64,000 nucleotides of DNA from Peptostreptococcaceae bacterium. GTDB lineage: Bacteria; Bacillota; Clostridia; Peptostreptococcales; Filifactoraceae. Within the stretch, counting starts at the first letter, position 1. The number at the start of each line of letters is the position of its first letter. The notes beneath the pieces were generated by a model, which saw only the letters and a program-made list of their open reading frames with translations, searched no databases and had not been told where the DNA came from. This document shows positions 34,020 through 47,860 of this stretch, one piece after another. A program made the translations under genes and the position numbers. The DNA lies in NCBI GenBank assembly GCA_030528605.1, contig JAUMYO010000001.1, positions 1-64,000 on the forward strand, in the 5' to 3' direction.

Positions 34020-37000
34020 ATGGATATCTGGGAAATACTGGGGATAGAAAAAACGAAGTCAAAAGACGAGATCGTGCAGGCATATCGCGAGCAGCTGGCA
34101 CACAATAATCCGGAAGAAAATCAGGAAGGATTCATGGCACTGAGAAAAGCGTATGAAGAAGCGATCGCCTACAGCGAAGGGGATGACGATGCGTTTGAAA
34201 AACTGATCGAAGAGATGGGAAACATTTATGGATGTTTCAGCAAGCGGATCGATCTCAAAAGATGGCAGGAGATCTTTCAGGATCCTTTGCTTCAAAGGAT
34301 CGACAGCAGGATGGAAGGAGAAGTGAAGATCATTCGCTTTTTGATGGAGCACTATCGTCTGTCCAAAGAGGTTTTTTCCCTATTTGCAGAAGAATTTGGG
34401 TGGCGCGACCGGATGGATGAGCTGGGTCAGCATTTTGCGATCGGTTTTTTCAACTATGTCTTTGACGTGATCGATAATGGCGAATACTACAGGATGGATC
34501 ATTTTGACGGAGACGACTATGCCGACTATGATCTGTTTATCGAGAAATGTATGGATCTTGCCGGGCTTGTTCAGCAGGACGACGAGAATGCGAAAGATCT
34601 CATCGAGGAGATCGATGCACTGGAGATCTATCATCCGTATTATTCGGAGATCAAGGCGGAGTATTTTATCAAGAAAAATGATCTTGCGGCGGCGGATGAG
34701 ATCACGGCAGATCTCGCATCGCTCTATCCGGATAATGTCCGTCTGCTCAGTCTGAGGCTTCGTATCCTGACCAAGCTGGGACGCTTGGAAGAGGGGCGTC
34801 ATATCGCCGATATGCTCAAGCAACTCGAACCGGAAAATCGAATGATGCTTCTCTTTGAGATCGTGGAAAGAGGGGATCGAGATATCGAGGCGGCGAAAGA
34901 TGATTACTATGATTTTAACCGCGCTTATACTTATGGAGAGGATGCGGGGGAGATCGCCGAACTTTTGAATAAAAAACTGATCCCGCATCTGGAATCGAAG
35001 ATGGAAGATCTGACTCCGCTGGATAAGATCGCTCTTGCATGGGGTTATTATGAACAGGAGCAGGAAGAGCGAGCATATCAGTTTTTAGAAACTTTTGAAC
35101 CGATGCTGATGGAACAGGATCTGATGAAAGAACATTATAAAAAAAATGAACTGACAGATCGGGATGTAAAGTTCAAGTACTATAAGCTGAAGGGATATCT
35201 TGCCGTTCAGACGGAGCGCTTTGAGCGAGCGATCGAAGATATCGAGCGTTGGGAAAAGCTTAGAGCGGAAAAAGATCTTGAGAAAGATCCGAGCGGTGAA
35301 GAAGACAGTGAAGCGAAGAAGCAAAATGACATCACGGAGCGTGCGGCACTTTATCGCTCCAAATCCTATGCGTACAGTATGCTTGGAGATAAGGAGAAAG
35401 AAAAAGAATATATCAAGAAGATCATCGATATGGATCCGCGCAATCTGGATGCCTACATCACCCTGAGCAATATTTATTTAGAGGAAGGAAAATTTGAGGA
35501 GGTCGTTGAGATCAATACGGAAGCGATGCAGCGTAACGGAGAAGTCGGACCGCTTTTGTATCTTACAGGGCTTGCAGAGTTTCGCCGAGAGCGCTATTCC
35601 GACTCGATCCGCCTGATGGATCTGGCGCTGGAATATATGCCGTATCTTACGAGGATCTATCATTACAAATTGATGATGTTCGATGGTTGGAATCTGTTGA
35701 ATGAGTTTGAAAATCAGCTTGAAGAATTGAAGAAATCATCGAACGAACCGTTATCTCCCAAATTGATGAAGCTATATGAGATCAAAAGGGATCGGATGAA
35801 AGGCGATCTTGCCGATCTTCGCACACAGATCGACCGATTGTTGTTGACGGTCGAAGAAGAAGATGAACAGATCGGCAGAGACGATCGGGCACTGATCTAT
35901 CAGGAGGCTTCGAATATCTATCGGGATATGAAGTCTTATGATGCCGCACTTTCGTATATTGAAAAGGCTGCCGCTCATAATCCGCTCAATCGAAGCATCG
36001 AACTGGACAAAGGATATCTTCTCGTCCTGCTCGGAAATTATGCGGAAGCGGAAAGATTTTATATGGATCTGGTCCGGCGTTATCCGAATGATTCGGTCTA
36101 TTTTATCCGTCTTGCCGCTACGAAATCGAGAAGCAACGACAAAAAAGGAGCGATCGAGTACTACCACAAAGCACTGGAGATCGATCCGGAGCGATATGAC
36201 ATCTATACTTATATCGCCGACGTCTATATCGACCTGGGAGATCATGACAAAGCTACGGAATACAAGACGATGATGGTGGACAAAGATCCCGGTTTTGAAA
36301 GCTACTATGAAAGAGCGAATCATCTGTATCATATCGGGAAGATCGACGAAGCCTACGAGGATCTGCTCAAAGCGAAAGAATATCAGCCGTATGATTCGGA
36401 TGTGCTGACTTTCCTCGCACGATGCGATATGAAACGCAGAGATCTGAAACAGGCGGAGGAGCATTATCAAAAAGCACTGGAATATTTTGATGCGAACCGT
36501 TTCAGCCTCAACACCTATATGTATTTGACGGTCAAATATATTCGAGAAAAAAGATATGACAAAGTGATCAAGACTCTCGAAAAAGCGTTCGAGCTTTTTG
36601 GCGAGGGAGGGGTGTGGCCGGTACTTCGTCTGGCACAAGCATATCACTGGACAGGCGATCTGTCCAAAGCGGAAGAAAACTACAAGAAAGCGATCCGGAT
36701 CGATCCGTTCAGCGCAGAGGCGCATCATCAGTATGCGGTCTATCTTGCGCAGACCGGAAGAGCGGAGATGGGACGTGCGCATTTTGAACGTTTGAGCCGT
36801 GAGCAGCTGACCGATGTGAACATCCGCAGGAATTTTGGACTGTATTGCTATATGACCTTGCTTGATTTTTCCGAAGCGCAAAAGCATTACCAAAAAGTGC
36901 TGGAGCTGTCCGGTTCGGAGGCGGATCTTTTTGTGATCAATCTTTTTGAGGCGATTTGGTATGAACTGAGGTCATCACAAGGAAAGATCTCGGACCGATT

Positions 37001-37415
37001 GGATATCCAAAAGATCTTTTTTGTAAAAAAGAAGAAGCAAAGGATGGAGGATTTTTTCCAAGAAATGATCCTTCGTGCCGATCGTTATTATGAGCAGCAT
37101 GGAGTGTATGAAGAAGGATCTTCGGCACATTGGCTCTCTCTGATGAGCGAATGCTTCTTCTATTCGGGCGATCTGAATCAGGCAGAAAAGTTTGCGAGGA
37201 TGTGTCTTGCGCTTCCGCCGGCTGATTTTGATCTCGTGGATCGCTCGATGGACGCACTCTACATCTTAGGGATGGTGGAAGAGATGCGTGGAGAGTACGA
37301 CAAGGCACTTGAATACTATGAAGAGATCCATGAAAGATCTTCAAAAACTGACTACGCTTTTGCTTTGTTTGAAGAAGCACGCGAGCGGATCAAAAGAAAG
37401 ATAAAGAAGGTCTGA
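34020..37415 (+). CDS. Large TPR protein with degenerate J-like N-terminal domain
   Basis: An 1131-residue protein. Residues 1-55 (DIWEILGIEKTKSKDEIVQAYREQ, then EGFMALRKAYEEA) resemble a J domain. The catalytic HPD is not intact: the loop reads HNNPEENQ. This resembles the variant J domains of DjlB/DjlC-type partners of HscC. The rest is mostly helical, with many tetratricopeptide units, clearest at about 465-510 (MDPRNLDAYITLSNIYLEEG), 640-760 and 810-900 (ALEIDPERYDIYTYIADVY). It lies 168 bases after the Hsp70 gene, so they probably act together. GAGAG precedes ATG 34020. No membrane segments. Confidence 0.85.
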   Translation: MDIWEILGIEKTKSKDEIVQAYREQLAHNNPEENQEGFMALRKAYEEAIAYSEGDDDAFEKLIEEMGNIYGCFSKRIDLKRWQEIFQDPLLQRIDSRMEGEVKIIRFLMEHYRLSKEVFSLFAEEFGWRDRMDELGQHFAIGFFNYVFDVIDNGEYYRMDHFDGDDYADYDLFIEKCMDLAGLVQQDDENAKDLIEEIDALEIYHPYYSEIKAEYFIKKNDLAAADEITADLASLYPDNVRLLSLRLRILTKLGRLEEGRHIADMLKQLEPENRMMLLFEIVERGDRDIEAAKDDYYDFNRAYTYGEDAGEIAELLNKKLIPHLESKMEDLTPLDKIALAWGYYEQEQEERAYQFLETFEPMLMEQDLMKEHYKKNELTDRDVKFKYYKLKGYLAVQTERFERAIEDIERWEKLRAEKDLEKDPSGEEDSEAKKQNDITERAALYRSKSYAYSMLGDKEKEKEYIKKIIDMDPRNLDAYITLSNIYLEEGKFEEVVEINTEAMQRNGEVGPLLYLTGLAEFRRERYSDSIRLMDLALEYMPYLTRIYHYKLMMFDGWNLLNEFENQLEELKKSSNEPLSPKLMKLYEIKRDRMKGDLADLRTQIDRLLLTVEEEDEQIGRDDRALIYQEASNIYRDMKSYDAALSYIEKAAAHNPLNRSIELDKGYLLVLLGNYAEAERFYMDLVRRYPNDSVYFIRLAATKSRSNDKKGAIEYYHKALEIDPERYDIYTYIADVYIDLGDHDKATEYKTMMVDKDPGFESYYERANHLYHIGKIDEAYEDLLKAKEYQPYDSDVLTFLARCDMKRRDLKQAEEHYQKALEYFDANRFSLNTYMYLTVKYIREKRYDKVIKTLEKAFELFGEGGVWPVLRLAQAYHWTGDLSKAEENYKKAIRIDPFSAEAHHQYAVYLAQTGRAEMGRAHFERLSREQLTDVNIRRNFGLYCYMTLLDFSEAQKHYQKVLELSGSEADLFVINLFEAIWYELRSSQGKISDRLDIQKIFFVKKKKQRMEDFFQEMILRADRYYEQHGVYEEGSSAHWLSLMSECFFYSGDLNQAEKFARMCLALPPADFDLVDRSMDALYILGMVEEMRGEYDKALEYYEEIHERSSKTDYAFALFEEARERIKRKIKKV

Positions 37416-37653: not shown

Positions 37654-38898
37654 GTGGCAAAAAAACAGCAATCGAAAATAAAAATACAAACCTTTGGTTT
37701 TTTTGATCTTTTGATAGAGTCTGAGTCAGCGATCCAAAACTTCGGGAGCAGCAAAAAGACACTGGCGCTCTTTAAGTTTTTTGTGGCACATATCAATGAA
37801 AAGCTGCCAACTCATAAGATCATGGAAGCGAATTTCAGCGAATATAATTATTCCGATCCGGGCAATACTTTGCGGGGACATATCCATCGTCTTCGTGCGG
37901 TACTCAATACGTTGAACAAACAAGTGAGTTTCAAAGCGTTCAGTGTGGATTATGTTGCAGATTACTACATTTTTACTGCAAGTAAGGGCTGCAGCATCGA
38001 CTTTGTCGAATTTCTCTCACTGATAAAAGAAGAACCGACCACGGAAAGCTCGTCCGGACGAGATCGGCTCGATCGTGTGAAAGAGCTTTATAGAGGTAAT
38101 TTTTTGCAGGACTCCGAAAATCTTGAGTGGATCAAACCGATCCGTTTTGAAATGCGTAAGAAGTTTTCGCGTTATATCGATTCGGTATTGGAGCATCTAT
38201 ATGAGAAGCAGGAATATAGCGAGGCACTCGTCGAAGCGGATTCCGTAATGGAAAAACTCTTCTTTGAAGAGGATTTTCAAGAGTGGTACCTCAAGATCAT
38301 GATCGCTTTGGAAAAAGCACAGGAAGCGATGGATCATTTCGATTTTATGAGTCACCGATTCCAGAGTGAAAAAGGGATGTTGCCTTCCGAAAAACTGTCA
38401 GGCCTGTTCAAGAAGATCTCGGAAATGAGTAACAGCGTGTCCAGTACCGATTTTTTCACGATCGAGAAAAAATTGCGTCAGACGGAGGCGGGAAGCAGCA
38501 ATGGAGTATTTGTAAGTTCAAAAGAATTTTTCATGGATCTGTATCGTTTGGAGGTTCGTCGTAAAAAGCGTCATGGCGACCGGATCACTTCGGTAGGGAT
38601 CGTCAATATCGCAACGGCAGATTTTCGAGATATGAAAAAAGAAGAGGTCCGCATCGTTCAAGATGAATTGACGGAACTGATCTCCAAAACGATCCGTGCA
38701 CAGGATGTGATGACGATCCTTAATGACAGCCAAGTCGCATTTATGCTTTTTGATGCTCTGGATACGACTGTTGTCGATGTGGATGAACGAATGAAGACGG
38801 AACTGAATCGGATCCGAGAAGAATATAAGCTCGTGATCACGATCAGTTATAAAACGATCACTGCCGGCAATGAATTTTCAGGGGAATTGACACTATAA
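37654..38898 (+). CDS. SARP/BTAD-type transcriptional regulator with GGDEF-like C-terminal domain
   Basis: A 414-residue protein starting at GTG 37654 behind AGGAG. Residues 5-105 look like a winged-helix domain of OmpR/SARP type (KIKIQTFGFFDLLI, then LRGHIHRLRAVLN). Residues 120-260 resemble the helical bacterial transcriptional activation domain (GNFLQDSENLEWIKPIRFEMR). Residues 290-414 recall a degenerate nucleotide cyclase fold: FMDLYRLEVRRKKRHGDRITSVGIVNI is followed by AQDVMTILNDSQVAFMLFDA, at the place of the GGDEF motif, which is absent. It may be a ligand or c-di-GMP sensor module, though that is inference. A strong terminator follows. Confidence 0.75.
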   Translation: MAKKQQSKIKIQTFGFFDLLIESESAIQNFGSSKKTLALFKFFVAHINEKLPTHKIMEANFSEYNYSDPGNTLRGHIHRLRAVLNTLNKQVSFKAFSVDYVADYYIFTASKGCSIDFVEFLSLIKEEPTTESSSGRDRLDRVKELYRGNFLQDSENLEWIKPIRFEMRKKFSRYIDSVLEHLYEKQEYSEALVEADSVMEKLFFEEDFQEWYLKIMIALEKAQEAMDHFDFMSHRFQSEKGMLPSEKLSGLFKKISEMSNSVSSTDFFTIEKKLRQTEAGSSNGVFVSSKEFFMDLYRLEVRRKKRHGDRITSVGIVNIATADFRDMKKEEVRIVQDELTELISKTIRAQDVMTILNDSQVAFMLFDALDTTVVDVDERMKTELNRIREEYKLVITISYKTITAGNEFSGELTL

Positions 38899-39282: not shown

Positions 39283-41754
39283 ATGGAGGGAAAGTTATTT
39301 TACAAGATCTTTGTTTTGCCGATCATTATCAGTTGTATTTTTATGATCACGAGCCATGCGGAAGGAACGACCGAGGAGAACAAAACGATCTACTTGGGGA
39401 CGAGATCCCATGATACTTACCGGAATGTGATCGAAGAAGTCTTGCCGCAGTATCGGGTGATACAGCAGACGCATCCGGCAACGCAAGCCTTTTTGGAAGA
39501 AGGGACAGGGCTTGTGACGATCGATGTGATCGCACAGATGCTCTTACGCTCCGGTCGAGACAAGTATCATTGGTATCCTCAAAGCAGGGCGACTGTAGTG
39601 ATCGCGATAGATACGAATCGGACAGAGGGGACGATCGACGGGTGGAACGACGTGATATACAGCGATGCGACAGTCGGAATGAGTGATGAATTTATTGAGG
39701 CGGGCTGTATCATCACATCGATGGCGTATGGATTGGATAATGAGTCGCCTTCTCCTGAACAGGCGGTAAAGCATTTGGCGGATCTTTATGATCGCAAGAG
39801 GTTACGGTTCAACGATCTTGATGCACCGATCCTCATTTTGTTCGACTATCAGGCAGCGGCTTTGGAGCGATCCGGTCAGGATCGTGTGATCGTCGTGCCC
39901 GAAGAAGGGACCTATACTTTTGATCGAGGGATCATCTCAAAGGTCGAGCTCCGTTTTCCTTCCGATCTGGATCTCATTATGGCTCGAGAGGGTCTTTGTA
40001 CGATCGGATCGTGCGAAAGCGGGGATCACTATCCGAGCATTGCTGACTATCAGCGTGCAGTATACCCGAAGGATCCGGAATATATACATAAAGAGTTGAT
40101 CAATACGAGAGAGTACCTCAACCGAGAGATCTATGGAACGCATGTAGTGATCGCCGCAACAGCGATCGAATACACCCTCTCGGCATTAGTGCCGATCGTT
40201 TTGTTCGTTTTTTGGATCGGATCTTGTCAGATGAGATCGATGCAAAAGAATGTCTCGTATGCACTTTTAGTGATCGGTGTGTGCATGGTCCTATGGATGT
40301 CGGTACGTTTTTTCAAATGGCAGGTCTCCACGATCAGTTTGGCGAACCGATATTTTTGGTATTCCTATTATATTTTTATGTTGTCGATAACTAATTTTTT
40401 CCTATGGATGTCCACATCCGTCAATTCGTTGGAAGAAAAGGTGGCTTTTCCGCGATGGTTTAAGGCTCTGTTGTTGTATGAATCGTTCCTCCTGTTACTG
40501 GTATTTACGAACGATCTTCATCAATGGGTGTTTGTGTTTGATAGAGGTGCGGATTTTTGGGAGAAGGATTATACTTACAACTGGGGATATTATCTGGTCT
40601 ATAGCAGTTCTTTTTTGAGTTTGATCGCCGGCGTTTTTGTCTTGGCTTTTCGCGTTTGGCGAAGTCCCAAACGAGTGCGGATCTTGATGCCGATCATTGT
40701 ACTGATACTTATGAGTGCTTATACGATCTTGTATATCAAGCGCGTTCCGTGGGCTTTTTATGGAGACCTGTCCCTGATGATCTGTCTTTTTACGCTTTCC
40801 TTTGGAGAGGCGGCTATGCGGACCGGACTGATCCTGGTCAACACCAAATATGTTATGTTGTTTGACAATTCCTCCTTAAATATGAAGATCATTTCTCGTG
40901 AAGGGGAAGTGGCATATTCTTCCGATCCCAAAGAAGAGATCTCTCAAGAAAGGATGAAACGACTTCTGGAAGAGGAAGGTCCTCAGGTAATGGAAGTCGG
41001 CGAAGATCTGCTCCTTCACTCGGACCCGATCACCGGCGGAAAGATCCTTTGGCATGAAGACATCCGTGAGATCCGAGAGTTGCAAAAAAAAGTACAAAAT
41101 TCCGTTGAAAAGATCAAACGGACCAATGAGATGCTTGAAAAACGATCGATCATACAAGCCAAGCAGGAAGCGGTCAATGCCAAGGTGCTGCTTCACAGTC
41201 AGTTGAACCAAGAGATCGGGGATAAACTTCTTCGGCTGGATCATTTGGCAAATGAGCTGAAGGTCCTTGAGCAAGAAGGGGATGACTCTCGGTATGAGCA
41301 AGTCCTCGCGCTGATCAGTTTGACAGCGATCTATATCAAGCGTCGTTGCAATCTGTTGTTTTATGTGGAACAAAAATATATGTCCTCTGACGCGATCGTT
41401 ACTTACCTCAGCGAGATCTTGGAGTTTGCCGCTCATACCGGACTCCGGAGCGCACCGATCCTGTCGCTGAAGGATGAGATCGAGACGCAGAGCGGGATCT
41501 TGTTATATGATTTTTGTTTTTCGATCCTGGACCTTCTGATACGTGGCGATATTTATGAATTGATGCTTCATCTCTATACAGAGAACGATACGATCTGTCT
41601 TAGGGTGATCGCAGAAGCGGATCTTGCCGCATATCGTCCGTCGGAAAAGATCGAAGCCCAAATGTTTCAGCTGAATGCAAGCTTTGCCCAAAAACATCTG
41701 GGAGAAGCACAGAGTATCCAGCTGGAGATCCCGATGTTGGAGAAGGAGATCTGA
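39283..41754 (+). CDS. Binding-protein/multi-TM sensor with degenerate histidine kinase module
   Basis: An 823-residue protein. It starts with a signal-anchor (residues 8-27, ending SHAEG). An extracellular region follows (30-280) resembling a type 2 periplasmic binding protein fold (KTIYLGTRSHDTYRNVIEEVLPQY). About seven to eight membrane helices span 290-520. The cytoplasmic part has a linker (525-600), a coiled coil (600-635), a segment like a HisKA_3 dimerisation helix (LHSQLNQEIGDKLL, about 637-650), and an ATPase-like tail (690-815). I cannot find the N-box asparagine or the glycine-rich G boxes in that tail. I infer a pseudokinase receptor working with the intact kinase encoded one base downstream. 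Confidence 0.75.
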   Translation: MEGKLFYKIFVLPIIISCIFMITSHAEGTTEENKTIYLGTRSHDTYRNVIEEVLPQYRVIQQTHPATQAFLEEGTGLVTIDVIAQMLLRSGRDKYHWYPQSRATVVIAIDTNRTEGTIDGWNDVIYSDATVGMSDEFIEAGCIITSMAYGLDNESPSPEQAVKHLADLYDRKRLRFNDLDAPILILFDYQAAALERSGQDRVIVVPEEGTYTFDRGIISKVELRFPSDLDLIMAREGLCTIGSCESGDHYPSIADYQRAVYPKDPEYIHKELINTREYLNREIYGTHVVIAATAIEYTLSALVPIVLFVFWIGSCQMRSMQKNVSYALLVIGVCMVLWMSVRFFKWQVSTISLANRYFWYSYYIFMLSITNFFLWMSTSVNSLEEKVAFPRWFKALLLYESFLLLLVFTNDLHQWVFVFDRGADFWEKDYTYNWGYYLVYSSSFLSLIAGVFVLAFRVWRSPKRVRILMPIIVLILMSAYTILYIKRVPWAFYGDLSLMICLFTLSFGEAAMRTGLILVNTKYVMLFDNSSLNMKIISREGEVAYSSDPKEEISQERMKRLLEEEGPQVMEVGEDLLLHSDPITGGKILWHEDIREIRELQKKVQNSVEKIKRTNEMLEKRSIIQAKQEAVNAKVLLHSQLNQEIGDKLLRLDHLANELKVLEQEGDDSRYEQVLALISLTAIYIKRRCNLLFYVEQKYMSSDAIVTYLSEILEFAAHTGLRSAPILSLKDEIETQSGILLYDFCFSILDLLIRGDIYELMLHLYTENDTICLRVIAEADLAAYRPSEKIEAQMFQLNASFAQKHLGEAQSIQLEIPMLEKEI

Positions 41755-41755
41755 A

Positions 41756-43204
41756 ATGCATGATTTTTATATGATGGAGAGGTGGGTCCGGATCGGTATA
41801 AGTTTTTTGGGACTGATCACACTGATCTCGCAAGCGATCCATATCGTCTTTGCATCAAAAAGGATCGATCGCAAAAATTATCGGATCCGCCAACTGTTTG
41901 AATACACCGTATTGGGGAATGTACTGATCCTTGCGACCATCCCGCCGATGTTGAACTTCATTCTTCGTGATGGGTTTTTACCCTCGACGGTTCTTGGAAG
42001 AGAAAGAGTGATCGCGTTTTTGTGTCTGTGTGTCATCACTCTTTTGCGCGTAGCGATCGCACATGAATTTTTGCCGATCGTGAATCTGCCGGCAATGATC
42101 CCGATGATGCCAAATTTTGAGACCTTGCTTGGAAAAGGCTTTTTTGTCTATTATGGATTTCTTATGGTCTACTTTTTGGCAAGGAACATCTATTTTATAC
42201 AGGAAGATCATCGGATGATCCGTCAAAGCATATCGGTCTGGTCGATCAAAGAGGCATTGGATTCTTTGCGATCGGGGATCTTGTTTTGCCAGCATGACGG
42301 ATCGACCTTACTGATCAATCGCAGGATGAAAAAATTGATGAATCAGTTTGGGGGAGGATTTTCCAATGACGGGCTAAAGTGGTTTGAGGACCTGGATCAT
42401 TATGCGCAATGTCCGGTGAAGAGCGGATCGTTTGACGAAAAACGAGCGGTCCTAAGTTTTGACGGAAAGGTTTTTTGGCATTTTACAAAAGAACGACTGG
42501 AGATCGGAAATAAGATCTATTGGCAGATCGTCGCGACGGATGTCACGGAACGATGGGATCTGGTCCGTGAACTGGAGGAACAGGACCGGCTCCTGCGAAA
42601 CAAGAGTATCGAGCTCAACCACATGATCTCAAATATGTTTCAGATACAGCGAGAGCAGGAAAAAAATCGCCTCAGAGGAAAGCTTCACGATGTATTGAGT
42701 CAGAGGATCACTCTGTTTCAGCGATGGATGCAAAGCGATGAGCTTCCGACGGCAGAGCAGATCGTGCAATTAGTAAGTACGCTGAGCCATGGATTCGATG
42801 CGGAAGTGGAAGAATATTCCCAAGACAGCCTACAGGTAGTCATTCGACATTTTGAGGATATCGGGATCCGGGTCCACATAGAAGGGAAGCTTCCGCCGGA
42901 ACCGTTGTTTGCGGGGACCTTTGTCCTGATCATTCGAGAAGCGGTCACCAATGCGGTCCGTCATGGTTTGGCAGACCGGGTATTCATCGATCTGCTGCAA
43001 AATGAAAAGGAGTATGTTTTGAAGGTCCGCAACGATGGTGTGCAGAGTGAGCAAGAGTTAAAATATGGAAATGGTCTTCGTATCATGGAGGAGCGACTCA
43101 AAGCGGTGGGAGGTTTTCTGTCCGTTGAAGTTACTGCGAGTTTTCTGTTGACGGCGATCATTCCGAGGGAGGGGGCTTATGATCAGAGTAGGGATCATAG
43201 ATGA
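41756..43204 (+). CDS. NarL-type membrane sensor histidine kinase
   Basis: A 482-residue kinase. The N-terminus has about five to six membrane helices (15-160). A PAS-like domain (185-275) is followed by the HisKA_3 dimerisation domain with phospho-acceptor His311 in KLHDVLSQRI. The ATPase domain has an N-box in REAVTNAVRHG (about 394) and a G-box in YGNGLRIMEERLKAVGG (about 437). AAGGAG precedes ATG 41756, one base after the previous stop. It overlaps the response regulator by 26 bases. It probably phosphorylates that regulator. The signal is unknown; the upstream pseudokinase may control it. Confidence 0.88.
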   Translation: MHDFYMMERWVRIGISFLGLITLISQAIHIVFASKRIDRKNYRIRQLFEYTVLGNVLILATIPPMLNFILRDGFLPSTVLGRERVIAFLCLCVITLLRVAIAHEFLPIVNLPAMIPMMPNFETLLGKGFFVYYGFLMVYFLARNIYFIQEDHRMIRQSISVWSIKEALDSLRSGILFCQHDGSTLLINRRMKKLMNQFGGGFSNDGLKWFEDLDHYAQCPVKSGSFDEKRAVLSFDGKVFWHFTKERLEIGNKIYWQIVATDVTERWDLVRELEEQDRLLRNKSIELNHMISNMFQIQREQEKNRLRGKLHDVLSQRITLFQRWMQSDELPTAEQIVQLVSTLSHGFDAEVEEYSQDSLQVVIRHFEDIGIRVHIEGKLPPEPLFAGTFVLIIREAVTNAVRHGLADRVFIDLLQNEKEYVLKVRNDGVQSEQELKYGNGLRIMEERLKAVGGFLSVEVTASFLLTAIIPREGAYDQSRDHR

Positions 43205-43796
43205 TCATGCATCGATAAGAGATTCATACAAGATGGCTTTGGAGAGACTCGGTGATTTTGAGGTGATCGGAAGCCTATCTTCCGCTTCGTTGGCGGATAT
43301 ATGGTGTCAAAAAAATAAGCCGGATCTTGTGCTTATGGATATTTGTACGGAAGGGGAGGAATCAGGTCTGGAGGTGACCCGCCTGATCAAACAAAATTCT
43401 CCTGAAGTCAAAGTGATCGTTATGACGGGGTTTGACGAGATCTCCTACATTCCTCGTGCGAAAGAAGTAGGAGCGGACGGTTTTGTGTATAAGAGTAAAA
43501 GTTTTGAATATCTTATTTTTGTGATCCGATCGGTGATGAATGGGGAGAAAATATTTCCCGAACCGGTCGGAATAAGCGTTCCGAAGGGAGATGCCCCGCT
43601 GACGGAGCGTGAGATCGTTATTCTCCGTCTGTTGTGCAAGAACTACTCCAGACAAGAGATCGCAGAGGAATTGTTCATCAGTGAATTCACCGTGAAGCGT
43701 CATATGGCGAATATGCTCCAAAAAACGGGATTCCGCAACATCATGTCGCTGGTAGTCCATATGATATCCAATGGATGGATCAACCCGCATATATGA
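43179..43796 (+). CDS. LuxR/NarL-family response regulator
   Basis: A 205-residue regulator. The receiver domain (1-120) has the acidic pair Asp8-Asp9, phospho-acceptor Asp54 (LVLMDICTEG), a Thr in VIVMTGF and a Lys in FVYKSKS. A GerE/LuxR helix-turn-helix follows at about 140-200 (LTEREIVILRLLCKNYSRQEIAEEL and VKRHMANMLQKTGF). GGGAGGGGG precedes the ATG inside the kinase gene, so translation is coupled and it is the cognate regulator. Targets are not identified. Confidence 0.93.
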   Translation: MIRVGIIDDHASIRDSYKMALERLGDFEVIGSLSSASLADIWCQKNKPDLVLMDICTEGEESGLEVTRLIKQNSPEVKVIVMTGFDEISYIPRAKEVGADGFVYKSKSFEYLIFVIRSVMNGEKIFPEPVGISVPKGDAPLTEREIVILRLLCKNYSRQEIAEELFISEFTVKRHMANMLQKTGFRNIMSLVVHMISNGWINPHI

Positions 43797-43910
43797 AATA
43801 AAAATGGTTCTTTTAGACTATATGAAAGAGAGAGATCTTGGGGTATCATATAAGAGAGGGATGGTATTAGAAAAAGACTATGAGGTGCATTGCACGGAAA
43901 GGAGGCTTTC

Positions 43911-44291
43911 TTGCAAAGGATATTATTGGGATTGCATCGGAAGTTATTAGCGCAATCGATCGCTGAAACGATGAGAGAGGACGCTCGTTTTGTATTCTAT
44001 ACCGAGTATTGTGCAAAAAATATTCCTTTGGCGATCCAAAATTATGATATTGAGATCGCCGTGATCGAAGTACCGGAAAGCGGATCGGATCCTGCGGGGG
44101 AAAAGCTTGAGCTATGCAGAGAGATCGCAAAAGCTTCACCGGGCTGTAAATTGTTGCTTATGTGTTCGGAAGACAGCGAGCAGAGCAAGAGAGCGATGGT
44201 CGAAGCGAAGCAAAAAGGGGAGATCGAAGATTTTGTTTTCTATGATTCCAGTTTGGAATATCTGATCACTAAACTGGAGTCGATGAAATAA
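43911..44291 (+). CDS. Pseudo-receiver domain protein
   Basis: A 126-residue protein with the alternating hydrophobic strand pattern of a receiver domain (RILLGLH, IEIAVIEV, KLLLMCSED, DFVFYDSS, LEYLITKL). The working residues are missing: no acidic pair after strand one, Glu/Pro where the phospho-acceptor Asp should be (VIEVPESG), and Tyr in place of the conserved Lys. The start is TTG 43911, with AAAGGAGG five bases upstream; a TTG at 43890 lacks one. It follows the response regulator and may modulate it or the two sensors. A receiver origin is inferred from pattern only. Confidence 0.65.
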   Translation: MQRILLGLHRKLLAQSIAETMREDARFVFYTEYCAKNIPLAIQNYDIEIAVIEVPESGSDPAGEKLELCREIAKASPGCKLLLMCSEDSEQSKRAMVEAKQKGEIEDFVFYDSSLEYLITKLESMK

Positions 44292-44327
44292 ACAATGTTT
44301 TGAATGATATTATTTTTTGGAGGTATT

Positions 44328-45014
44328 ATGAAAAAATATGAAATTTTAGGGGGAAATCTTCCGGTGGTCGTATGTGAACTTGCAGCAGGAGAGTCGATGA
44401 TCACGGAAAAGGGAAGTATGAGCTGGATGTCACCGAACATGAAGATGGAGACGACTTCAAACGGAGGAGTAAAGAAGATGCTCGGAAGAGTATTTTCGGG
44501 AGAGTCTGCGTTCCAAAATCGCTATACGGCTGAGGGGTCGGACGGTATGATCGCCTTTGCTTCAAGCTTTCCAGGGTCGATAAAGGCTTTTGATATCGCG
44601 CCGGGGAGATCGGTGATCGTACAGAAATCCGCTTTTTTAGCTTCCGAGCCGTCGGTAGAGCTTTCGATGTTTTTTCAAAAAAGTTTGGGGAAAGGACTGT
44701 TCGGAGGAGAGGGCTTCGTGATGCAAAAACTTAGCGGACAGGGAGTCGCCTTTATCGAGATCGACGGTCATGGAGTAGAATATGATCTGAAGGCGGGAGA
44801 GTCCATGGTCATCGATACCGGCTATCTGGTGGCGATGGATGAAACTTGTACGATGGAAGTGGTGACGGTTCCGGGGATCAAAAATATTCTTTTCGGAGGA
44901 GAAGGATTGTTCAATACCGTTGTGAAAGGACCGGGGAAGATCATTCTTCAAACGATGCCGATCTTTAACGTCGCATCGGTACTGATCCCGTATATGCCGA
45001 CCGGAGGGAAATAG
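44328..45014 (+). CDS. TIGR00266/AIM24 family protein
   Basis: A 228-residue beta-rich protein of the TIGR00266 (AIM24-like, DUF124) family. It begins YEILGGNLPVVVCELAAGESM and has the typical SMSWMSPNMKMETTSNGG, FEGLF-type glycine-rich and GPGKIILQT segments. Function is unknown; the family has a trimeric beta-prism fold and may associate with membranes. GGAGG precedes ATG 44328, an in-frame ATG upstream being less well placed. It lies 36 bases after the pseudo-receiver, possibly in the same transcript, and ends in a terminator. Confidence 0.88.
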   Translation: MKKYEILGGNLPVVVCELAAGESMITEKGSMSWMSPNMKMETTSNGGVKKMLGRVFSGESAFQNRYTAEGSDGMIAFASSFPGSIKAFDIAPGRSVIVQKSAFLASEPSVELSMFFQKSLGKGLFGGEGFVMQKLSGQGVAFIEIDGHGVEYDLKAGESMVIDTGYLVAMDETCTMEVVTVPGIKNILFGGEGLFNTVVKGPGKIILQTMPIFNVASVLIPYMPTGGK

Positions 45015-45188: not shown

Positions 45189-46100
45189 ATGATCGAATTT
45201 TTGAGAACGCAGAATATATCATCGAAATTGATCGATGATATTCTATATTTTAGAAATTTTTATCGCTTGGATGAGAGATGGGAGCATCGTGTACCGAAGC
45301 CGAAATATCATTATTATGGGAAAGACGTGTGGGAGATGGCGATCACGGCGATCCTTCAAGGGGACAATATCCTTTTGAGCGGACCCAAAGCGACGGGGAA
45401 AAATGTATTGGCGGATGATCTTGCGGCGACATTTCATCGACCGAGCTGGAATGTATCGTTCCATGTAAATACGGACAGCAGCACGCTGATCGGGACGGAC
45501 ACCTTTACCGATGGGGAGGTCCATTTTCGCAAAGGGTCGATCTATGAGGCTGCGATCTATGGCGGATTCGGGATCTTCGATGAGATCAATATGGCGAAGA
45601 ATGATGCGATCGCTGTATTGCATTCGGCATTGGATCATCGTCGCATCATTGATGTTTCGGGCTACGATCGGATCGAGCTGGCGGAAGAGACCAGATTTAT
45701 CGGTACGATGAATTACGGATATGCAGGAACGAAGGAGCTCAATGAGGCACTGGTCTCCCGGTTTATGGTGATCGATATCCCGCCGGTGGACCGTGAGAAA
45801 TTGAAGATGATCCTCGCTTCAGAGTTTTCGGATCTTCGAGAAGAGTATCTTGAAAATTTCAGTTCACTTTTTTTAGATCTTCAGCTGAAATCTCGCAATT
45901 CCGAGATCTCCAGCAAAGCGGTCGATCTAAGAGGACTGATCGGTGCGGTGAAAGCGATGGACCGGGGGCTGGATCCTTTTGCCGCGATCCGGATGGGGAT
46001 CTTGGGAAAGATCTTCGATGACTTTGAAAAAGAGATCGTGGAAGATGTGGTAAAGTTGCATCTTCCGAGAAAAGCGACACGAGAGGACATTTTTAGATGA
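45189..46100 (+). CDS. MoxR/NorQ-type AAA+ ATPase
   Basis: A 303-residue ATPase. Walker A is GPKATGKN (about residue 65), a form typical of the MoxR/CbbQ/NorQ branch. Walker B is FGIFDEINM (about 121), followed by sensor 1 in FIGTMN and an arginine-finger region in EALVSRFMVIDI. These ATPases act as metal-cofactor insertion or complex-remodelling chaperones together with a VWA-domain partner, encoded here by the next gene with a four-base overlap. The target complex is unknown. AGGAGG precedes ATG 45189. Confidence 0.88.
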   Translation: MIEFLRTQNISSKLIDDILYFRNFYRLDERWEHRVPKPKYHYYGKDVWEMAITAILQGDNILLSGPKATGKNVLADDLAATFHRPSWNVSFHVNTDSSTLIGTDTFTDGEVHFRKGSIYEAAIYGGFGIFDEINMAKNDAIAVLHSALDHRRIIDVSGYDRIELAEETRFIGTMNYGYAGTKELNEALVSRFMVIDIPPVDREKLKMILASEFSDLREEYLENFSSLFLDLQLKSRNSEISSKAVDLRGLIGAVKAMDRGLDPFAAIRMGILGKIFDDFEKEIVEDVVKLHLPRKATREDIFR

Positions 46101-47860
46101 TGATGAAAAAAACGGAAGACCGTTCTTCGATAAGAGATGAGAATATCGTCTGGACAGTCAGCCGAGATTATGATCGATCGCCATCGCTGGAGCTGGTTGA
46201 CAAAACAGGGATCGATTCTCTGGATCGATATCGGATGGTGATCTTCGGGATGTTGTACCGAGAAGATCATTCTTCGATACTGTCCTATTGTATTCAAAAA
46301 AGAGAAGCGACTCGGAAGCTGTCGATCTTTTCGGAGCTGATGATATTGACGATGGAAGAGATGTTCCATACGGTCCTTCGCCAAAACTTTTCGGGTCTTT
46401 GGGATATGCAGGATGTGGTGTTGGAAGATGTTGCGAGATTTTATGACAAAATGCGTAAAAGAGGGGATGCCTCTCATGAGATCCGCTACGCTTACTATGC
46501 TATGAAAAAAGGGGTCGTTCCCAAGAGCAATCGTCGCGTGATCGATCTTTTGGATGAGATCGTTCAGTTTAGAGACATGGAGCGCGTTGAATATATCTCG
46601 AAAATGGAGAATTTACTAAAAAAGCATTTTCATTTTGAAAAAATTGCCGAAATAGAATTGAAAGATCCCGAGATAGAGCGTAAGGAGCAGAGCGATCGCC
46701 ACAGGGCGGATCGGGGGAAGCTTCGACATGTGGATAGGGCTATCGATATCGGGGATCAAGAACAGGTGATGTCTGCCGAGTTTAGCCAAGTCGATATCGG
46801 AAGGATCGCGGAGCGGATGAAAAAAGATCAGGCGGATGATCCGATGGATGCGATGACTGCCGAAGAGGGAAGGATCTACCAAAAGATCGTGGAGCGCTAT
46901 GGTATGCCTACGATCACCGGACCTCGGCTCGCAGATATGGAGAGGCGTTTATCGATCGGGATCCATCAAGGCGAACGACTTCATATCACGGACCGATTTA
47001 TGCAGATCGAAGGCTACAAAAAACAGATTTTACTGGAACAAACACAGGAAAATACCGATCATTTCGATCATCAACACCGGATCTATCGACGCAATATCGC
47101 TCGATTGGTCGAAAAACTGACTCGAACGATCATGGCGGATACAGATCATTCACCCAACAAGCTGGACAACGGGATGGTGATGTCTTCACAGATATGGCGC
47201 AAGGCGATCCTTGGGGACAACAAAGTGTTCTACAAAAATATTCGAGACACGAGGGGAAGATTTGTTGTCGATATTTTGCTGGATGCAAGCGGTTCACAGA
47301 TCGAAAGGCAAAGCCTCGTGGCGGCGCAAGGTTATATCATCGCGGAGGCACTCAGCCAGGTAGGGATCCCATGTAGAGTGAGCAGCTTCAATAATCTTTT
47401 TGATTACCTGATCCTCAAAGTATATCGCGATCACAAAGATCCGAGGTCTAAAAATCGGCAGATCTTCAGCTATCAGGCGGAAGGCAGCAATCGTGACGGA
47501 ATGGCGGTCGCGGTCGTCGGAGACATGTTGATGGAACGGGAAGAAGAGCACAAAGTGCTGATCGTGTTAAGTGACGGGAAACCGAACGACGAACGAGTAG
47601 GTGGAGCATTTAATACGATATCGTCCAAGACGAAGCCTTATACGGGAGATATCGCGGTGGATGACACTGCTCATCAGGTACGATCGCTGAGGGCGAAAGA
47701 GATCGCCGTTTTGGGCGTTTTTACCGGAGAGGATGAAGACTTGGAAGCCGAGCGGCGCATTTTTGGGAAAGACCTTGCTTATATCACGAAGATCGAGCGA
47801 TTCTCCGAGGTGGTAGGAACTTATTTGAAAAGGCAGATCACGAATGTTTTGGCGATCTAA
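46097..47860 (+). CDS. VWA-domain protein, CobT/NorD-like partner of the MoxR ATPase
   Basis: A 587-residue protein. The N-terminal two-thirds is helical and charged. The C-terminal von Willebrand A domain (about 390-585) has the metal-ion site DASGS (about residue 399) and SDGKPND (about 493). This arrangement, next to a MoxR ATPase, matches NorD/CbbO/CobT-type pairs that activate or assemble target enzymes. It overlaps the ATPase gene by four bases. The nearest downstream gene is a c-di-GMP enzyme, which gives no clear clue to the target. Confidence 0.85.
   Translation: MMMKKTEDRSSIRDENIVWTVSRDYDRSPSLELVDKTGIDSLDRYRMVIFGMLYREDHSSILSYCIQKREATRKLSIFSELMILTMEEMFHTVLRQNFSGLWDMQDVVLEDVARFYDKMRKRGDASHEIRYAYYAMKKGVVPKSNRRVIDLLDEIVQFRDMERVEYISKMENLLKKHFHFEKIAEIELKDPEIERKEQSDRHRADRGKLRHVDRAIDIGDQEQVMSAEFSQVDIGRIAERMKKDQADDPMDAMTAEEGRIYQKIVERYGMPTITGPRLADMERRLSIGIHQGERLHITDRFMQIEGYKKQILLEQTQENTDHFDHQHRIYRRNIARLVEKLTRTIMADTDHSPNKLDNGMVMSSQIWRKAILGDNKVFYKNIRDTRGRFVVDILLDASGSQIERQSLVAAQGYIIAEALSQVGIPCRVSSFNNLFDYLILKVYRDHKDPRSKNRQIFSYQAEGSNRDGMAVAVVGDMLMEREEEHKVLIVLSDGKPNDERVGGAFNTISSKTKPYTGDIAVDDTAHQVRSLRAKEIAVLGVFTGEDEDLEAERRIFGKDLAYITKIERFSEVVGTYLKRQITNVLAI

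Follow-up and report, generated by a model that had tools for sequence, protein, structure and literature searches.

In textbooks, histidine kinases are homodimers and serve as sensor and enzyme at once. A locus that encodes two adjacent kinase-like membrane sensors and one response regulator, with only one of the sensors retaining the catalytic motifs, raises the question of what the other sensor does and how it relates to its neighbour. Such a locus is present at positions 39283-43796 of the 64,000-nucleotide stretch of DNA analysed here (hereafter referred to as the window), which belongs to contig C8 of a 2.2-Mb draft genome (G000). Our preferred reading, to which we assign a probability of about 60%, is that the three genes encode an obligate receptor-pseudokinase/kinase/regulator system, in which the pseudokinase would sense and join its partner and the partner would phosphorylate the regulator. 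The system appears to be a real and widespread, and hitherto undescribed, variant of the kinase-pseudokinase theme; publications on pairs with such a seven-transmembrane (7TM) pseudokinase were not found in the literature searched, most subscription journals lying outside it.

Organisation of the locus and catalytic motifs of its products

All the genes described in this section are on the forward strand. The first (39283-41754; 823 aa) ends in a TGA stop codon and is followed, after one base, by the ATG of the kinase gene (41756-43204; 482 aa), which in turn overlaps the regulator gene (43179-43796) by 26 bases. Re-reading of the open reading frames bore out the coordinates, the one-base gap and the overlap reported in the first-pass annotation.

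An AlphaFold run on a 41-sequence family alignment of the first protein yielded a model with a mean pLDDT of 86.7, which runs from a signal helix through a binding protein with two lobes and a block of seven membrane helices to a PAS fold, helices and an ATPase-like alpha/beta fold. Behind the signal peptide, the ectodomain (residues 30-286; 39370-40140) has a type-2 periplasmic binding protein fold and is SBP_bac_6-like, the SBP_bac_6 domain being found in homologues and scoring above the cut-off in one of them (L143). Its structural matches in VIA include 5t1p (Z 22.9), the hexose-phosphate-binding AfuA (Z 18-19) and 6lkg (Z 17.4), the binding protein of a two-component system, which we take to be HptA. 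The VIA list is taken up by these ectodomain matches and says nothing on the tail of the protein. The membrane helices (residues 294-513; 40162-40821) correspond to HisKA_7TM (PF16927, E 2e-9), and Pfam recognises no kinase domain in the protein. The PAS fold (residues 521-593; 40843-41061) is seen in the model and aligns with the PAS domain of the partner kinase in hhalign. It is followed by a signalling helix with a degenerate DHp domain (residues 595-696; 41065-41370), modelled as one helix of 71 residues (595-665) and a second of residues 668-696, and by a degenerate CA domain (residues 699-817; 41377-41733), an ATPase-like fold in which the ATP-lid region has collapsed. A sequence search of the PDB with the tail matched no kinase; by structure it resembles DesK (Foldseek, E 6e-6). 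The presence of a DHp domain and a Bergerat-like CA fold is thus indicated by hhalign to the partner, by the AlphaFold model and by Foldseek.

The N, G1 and G2 boxes that make up the ATP site of a histidine kinase are all missing from this fold. An intact ATP site, named beforehand as the finding that would speak against a pseudokinase, was detected neither in the first protein nor in 40 aligned homologues. In the 40 aligned pairs of pseudokinase and partner kinase the lid region of the pseudokinases is mostly deleted, and no conserved phospho-accepting His is present at either of the two candidate registers, with no His in any of 71 fresh pairs. The family has instead its own conserved columns, namely G586, W590, the YxKRxxNL motif (684-691), E711 and Y/F742, among which G586, Y684, K686, R687 and E711 are near-invariant. 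On sequence grounds the loss of catalytic function in the first protein is a firm prediction, and the protein cannot be expected to bind ATP in the normal way or to be phosphorylated at a conserved His. Pfam, AlphaFold and the alignment together confirm the architecture first proposed for it, with a binding-protein-like ectodomain, about seven helices, a coiled coil and a kinase-like tail without N and G boxes.

The second protein, composed of a membrane part, PAS, DHp and CA domains, retains H311 (42686-42688), the N-box Asn N399 (42950-42952), D427-G428 and G440, in agreement with the earlier description of an intact NarL-type membrane kinase one base downstream. Its HATPase_c score (22.1) is slightly under the Pfam cut-off of 26.4, yet every motif is present, and the profile of the kinase family recovers DesK at 6e-23. 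With a phospho-accepting His in the DHp helix and N, G1 and G2 boxes, it belongs to the DesK/NarX type (HisKA_3, HPK7). The motifs are equally well kept by the partner kinases of the homologous loci (phospho-His in 39/40, N-box Asn in 40/40 and G2 Gly in 40/40; His in 71/71 of the fresh pairs). HATPase_c is recognised in 19 of 25 partner kinases; neither HATPase_c nor HisKA_3 is recognised in any of 24 pseudokinases, a class of pseudo-histidine kinases that is invisible to the domain models on which surveys depend. The regulator consists of a receiver (PF00072) and a LuxR/GerE domain (PF00196) of the NarL/LuxR type and keeps D9, D54 (43338-43340), T83 and K105 in an alignment of 20 module regulators. 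The suggestion that only one of the two subunits is catalytic is strongly supported by these patterns, the motifs being lost in the first protein and intact in the second.

Pairing and common origin of the two kinase-like families

Homologues of the pseudokinase were searched for with BLAST within the order of the window and with profiles at the level of the class, the phylum and two further orders. Their range spans the class and extends outside it, taking in numerous orders and families of Clostridia and related bacteria; a minority of the genomes carries them (27/198 in the order of the window and 47/188 in the order of genome G511). A pseudokinase gene lies directly before a kinase gene of the same subfamily at a total of 127 loci, the sum of three sets in which four loci common to the phylum-level and the further sets are counted once. 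Of the 52 pseudokinase ORFs in the first set, 46 have the kinase gene immediately behind them, in many cases overlapping by 4 bases, and 34 of these 46 also have the regulator gene next in line; the remaining six are gene fragments, lie at the end of a contig or, in one case, encode a 7TM-only protein. Direct succession was likewise observed in 7/7 scorable phylum-level loci and in 78/83 further loci. The five exceptions in the last set comprise four rows at contig or flank ends (two of which are the same locus, and one of which shows a tandem pseudokinase and then a kinase) and one gene with an internal stop. Weak 7TM-only matches (L048, L119-L121) were excluded, as they carry no pseudokinase tail. 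Conversely, in the 198 genomes of the order, all kinases scoring at least 154 bits adjoin a pseudokinase or are placed at a contig break, the background of other kinases in this search beginning at about 126 bits. The co-conservation that had been proposed as a check on the system is thus found in both directions, and obligate pairing of the pseudokinase with the kinase is a firm prediction from gene order.

Two more pseudokinase-kinase pairs are present in the same draft genome, L046 (G000:C80:1-10500) and L053 (G000:C56). The former has no adjoining regulator and is flanked by an AbiEi/AbiEii pair and a zeta-toxin-like kinase. Another locus (L308; G1175:C14:3500-11500) has pseudokinase genes in tandem, of which the second is partly degenerate, ahead of one kinase and a regulator.

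An hhalign alignment of the cytoplasmic parts of the two families (P 97, E 3e-11) covers PAS, helix, DHp and CA, and in a joint tree the pseudokinases form one clade and the kinases another, the two being sisters with support of 0.87 to 1.0. Two sister clades point to one old duplication behind the pairs and not to repeated recent decay; sensing and catalysis were seemingly split between two genes long ago and have been kept together since. The spacing between PAS and His is 47 residues in 40/40 kinases, and the corresponding stretch of the pseudokinase (595-642), also 47, is free of indels in 40/40 homologues. Tree distances of pseudokinase and kinase are correlated over 44 pairs (r = 0.90, permutation maximum 0.21), part of which is accounted for by linked inheritance, since linked genes yield congruent trees even without contact; with the regulator, which is short and noisier, either protein gives r = 0.71 over 34.

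The input end of the pseudokinase varies between loci: it may consist of the 7TM part only (proteins of about 550 aa), include a binding protein (770-990 aa) or carry two HisKA_7TM blocks in tandem (L102, L104). Partner kinases mostly have 2-5 membrane helices, with which they could form homodimers and act as sensors by themselves. Membrane helices are entirely absent from seven kinases of several families, two in the first set (L043, L099) and five in the fresh set (L257, L272, L274, L279, L296); their frames begin where the pseudokinase gene ends, so no sequence is missing between the two. In those loci the pseudokinase alone could import an outside signal, and the helix-less kinases appear to be the strongest natural argument for a split between receptor and catalyst. 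The strict pairing suggests that the dead copy senses and the live copy does the chemistry.

Proposed hetero-complex and alternative explanations

In the proposed mechanism, the ectodomain would capture a small ligand and the 7TM part, PAS and helix of the pseudokinase would pass the signal inward. The pseudokinase would join the DesK-type kinase, which has the same PAS-helix-DHp-CA layout, most likely through paired helices and DHp domains, with a stoichiometry of 1:1 or of 2:2 within a higher complex. On ligand binding the active subunit would change its balance of kinase and phosphatase activity; it is this subunit that would phosphorylate Asp54 of the LuxR-type regulator. If the dimer were strictly 1:1, the His of the kinase would have to be phosphorylated in cis; phosphorylation in trans would require two kinases per complex. 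In this scheme we infer the existence and stoichiometry of a physical complex, the direction in which ligand binding acts, and both ligand and target genes; a physical heterodimer of pseudokinase and kinase is considered likely.

A search for traces of contact between the two helices gave mixed results. Charge complementarity in the first 40 pairs was best, among 29 offsets, at +5 (z 4.3), just where it should lie if the helices formed a parallel coiled coil in register, with z 2.3 at -5; in the 71 fresh pairs the values at the two offsets were of the same sign and not distinguished (z 1.1 and 1.2). Comparison of the hydrophobic registers of both helices revealed no clearly favoured lag. In the AlphaFold models the DHp helix of the pseudokinase is about 8 residues longer than that of the kinase, so the two hairpins would be mismatched at the far end.

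This mismatch sits more comfortably with an accessory receptor, in which a pseudokinase homodimer or monomer contacts a homodimeric kinase by way of the membrane helices and tilts the balance between its kinase and phosphatase activities, with no shared DHp bundle. The membrane helices kept in most partner kinases agree with such an arrangement, for which RocA provides a possible precedent: this membrane pseudokinase interacts with CovS, and its action depends on the kinase and phosphatase activities of the latter (PMC7028121). However, the seven helix-less kinases still adjoin a pseudokinase, and contact there must be cytoplasmic; membrane action would also have no need of the whole PAS-helix-DHp-CA tail and of the YxKRxxNL motif in the second DHp helix, both of which are kept. 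We regard the accessory receptor as a serious but rather unlikely explanation.

The tail might instead bind the regulator, for which a DHp-like fold is the usual docking surface, or a small pseudo-receiver encoded downstream, and set the level of phosphorylated regulator by sequestration or aided dephosphorylation. The pseudo-receiver gene (43890-44291, forward strand; 133 aa from a TTG start, the sister start lying at about 43914) stands alone and matches the regulator of the module in hhalign (P 94.6, E 6.5e-8), but its Asp site is occupied by Glu, and Thr and Lys are replaced by Cys and Tyr, respectively; the Asp is retained in 2/10 members of its family. Besides the regulator, the family is the only neighbour that recurs across the modules, at 9 first-set loci, and in the 198 genomes of the order 5/5 strong matches adjoin a module, the weaker ones being mostly full regulators, including that of the module itself. 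It may thus be a fourth component, an optional one since most modules do without it. Since at some loci the regulator has diverged or lies upstream, with pseudokinase and kinase still side by side, and since pseudokinase distances follow the kinase better than the regulator, binding of the tail to the regulator or the pseudo-receiver in place of the kinase is improbable. A tentative and rather unlikely further reading is a 'shadow' two-component system, in which the kinase-derived pseudokinase and the regulator-derived pseudo-receiver would form a matched non-catalytic pair tuning the live pair.

It is very improbable that the first protein is still an enzyme, either an unorthodox kinase or a phosphotransfer protein using other residues. 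In the ungapped register Asn642 stands opposite His311 of the partner; hhalign instead sets His638 opposite it by opening a gap of four residues in the helix. In favour of a residual activity are this His and the frequency of Tyr in its column (24/40, and 50/71 in the fresh pairs). The same column is nevertheless Leu in a sister species from within the genus, and conserved His, N and G boxes and a conserved lid are all wanting. That the first protein is a decaying, functionless duplicate, as the loss of all catalytic motifs might imply, can practically be dismissed: its ORF has stayed open, conservation extends through the class and outside it, and the protein has near-invariant columns of its own and strict linkage to the kinase.

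Relation to known systems and neighbouring genes

The nearest precedent by function, compared here by description, is FasBCA of group A Streptococcus, in which, as in the window, two adjacent membrane kinase-like proteins accompany one regulator (PMC12675982). The FasBCA-type arrangement of two adjacent kinase-like genes and a regulator, one of the former encoding a pseudokinase, is found at the present locus. In two-hybrid assays the Fas kinases formed a heterodimer and no homodimers, and FasC was proposed to be a pseudokinase that retains a phospho-accepting His, H246, found important by the authors (PMC12675982). The pseudokinase of FasBCA therefore supplies the phospho-His, whereas those described here have no conserved His, N or G box. 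The Fas proteins have six membrane helices each and no binding-protein ectodomain, in contrast to the 7TM part, PAS and often a binding protein of the present family; the regulator here is of the LuxR type, while FasA reportedly recognises a site resembling that of ComE.

RocA-CovS, also of group A Streptococcus, resembles the window in that a membrane pseudokinase acts on an active kinase, the His of RocA being dispensable; RocA is, however, described as accessory to a two-component system that is itself complete, with no obligate operon pair described and no ectodomain (PMC7028121). Contact of the RocA type, through the membrane part, would be available to most of the partner kinases here and not to those without one. 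In RetS-GacS (PMC12189002) and DivL-CckA (PMC4211667), kinase-like proteins likewise control a different kinase or pathway through direct contact, but these systems are proteobacterial and of network type, with no dedicated two-kinase operon. A binding protein feeds a kinase and a regulator in the three-component systems of the SBP type (CuaDSR, PMC10384115; XylFII-LytS; HptARS) as well, but there it is separate and contacts an active kinase, whereas in the window it is fused to the pseudokinase. The catalytic pair itself is a DesK/NarX-type kinase with a LuxR-type regulator, ordinary members of which function without a pseudokinase partner.

An evolved ChrS pseudokinase raises signalling via HrrS; native ChrS and HrrS heterodimerise, and truncated ChrS was not seen to do so (PMC9491836). 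A survey of kinases with a missing His counted only domains recognised by HisKA-type models (PMC12632262), and the present pseudokinase family would therefore have been missed by it. The loci offer many natural pairs, including ones with soluble kinases, for asking how a dead partner controls a live kinase, in cis or in trans and at 1:1 or 2:2.

Other genes of interest were observed around the module. The gene at 34020-37415 encodes a protein of 1131 aa that has a DnaJ-like match at its N terminus and numerous TPR repeats, and directly upstream of the module (37654-38898) is a GTG-start gene whose product combines a BTAD-type activator domain with a weak match to a winged helix. Downstream, at 45189-47860, a MoxR-type AAA ATPase is followed by a CobT/VWA protein, forming a MoxR-VWA pair; the ATPase and the AIM24-like gene preceding it (44304-45014) recur in two sister loci (L009, L041).
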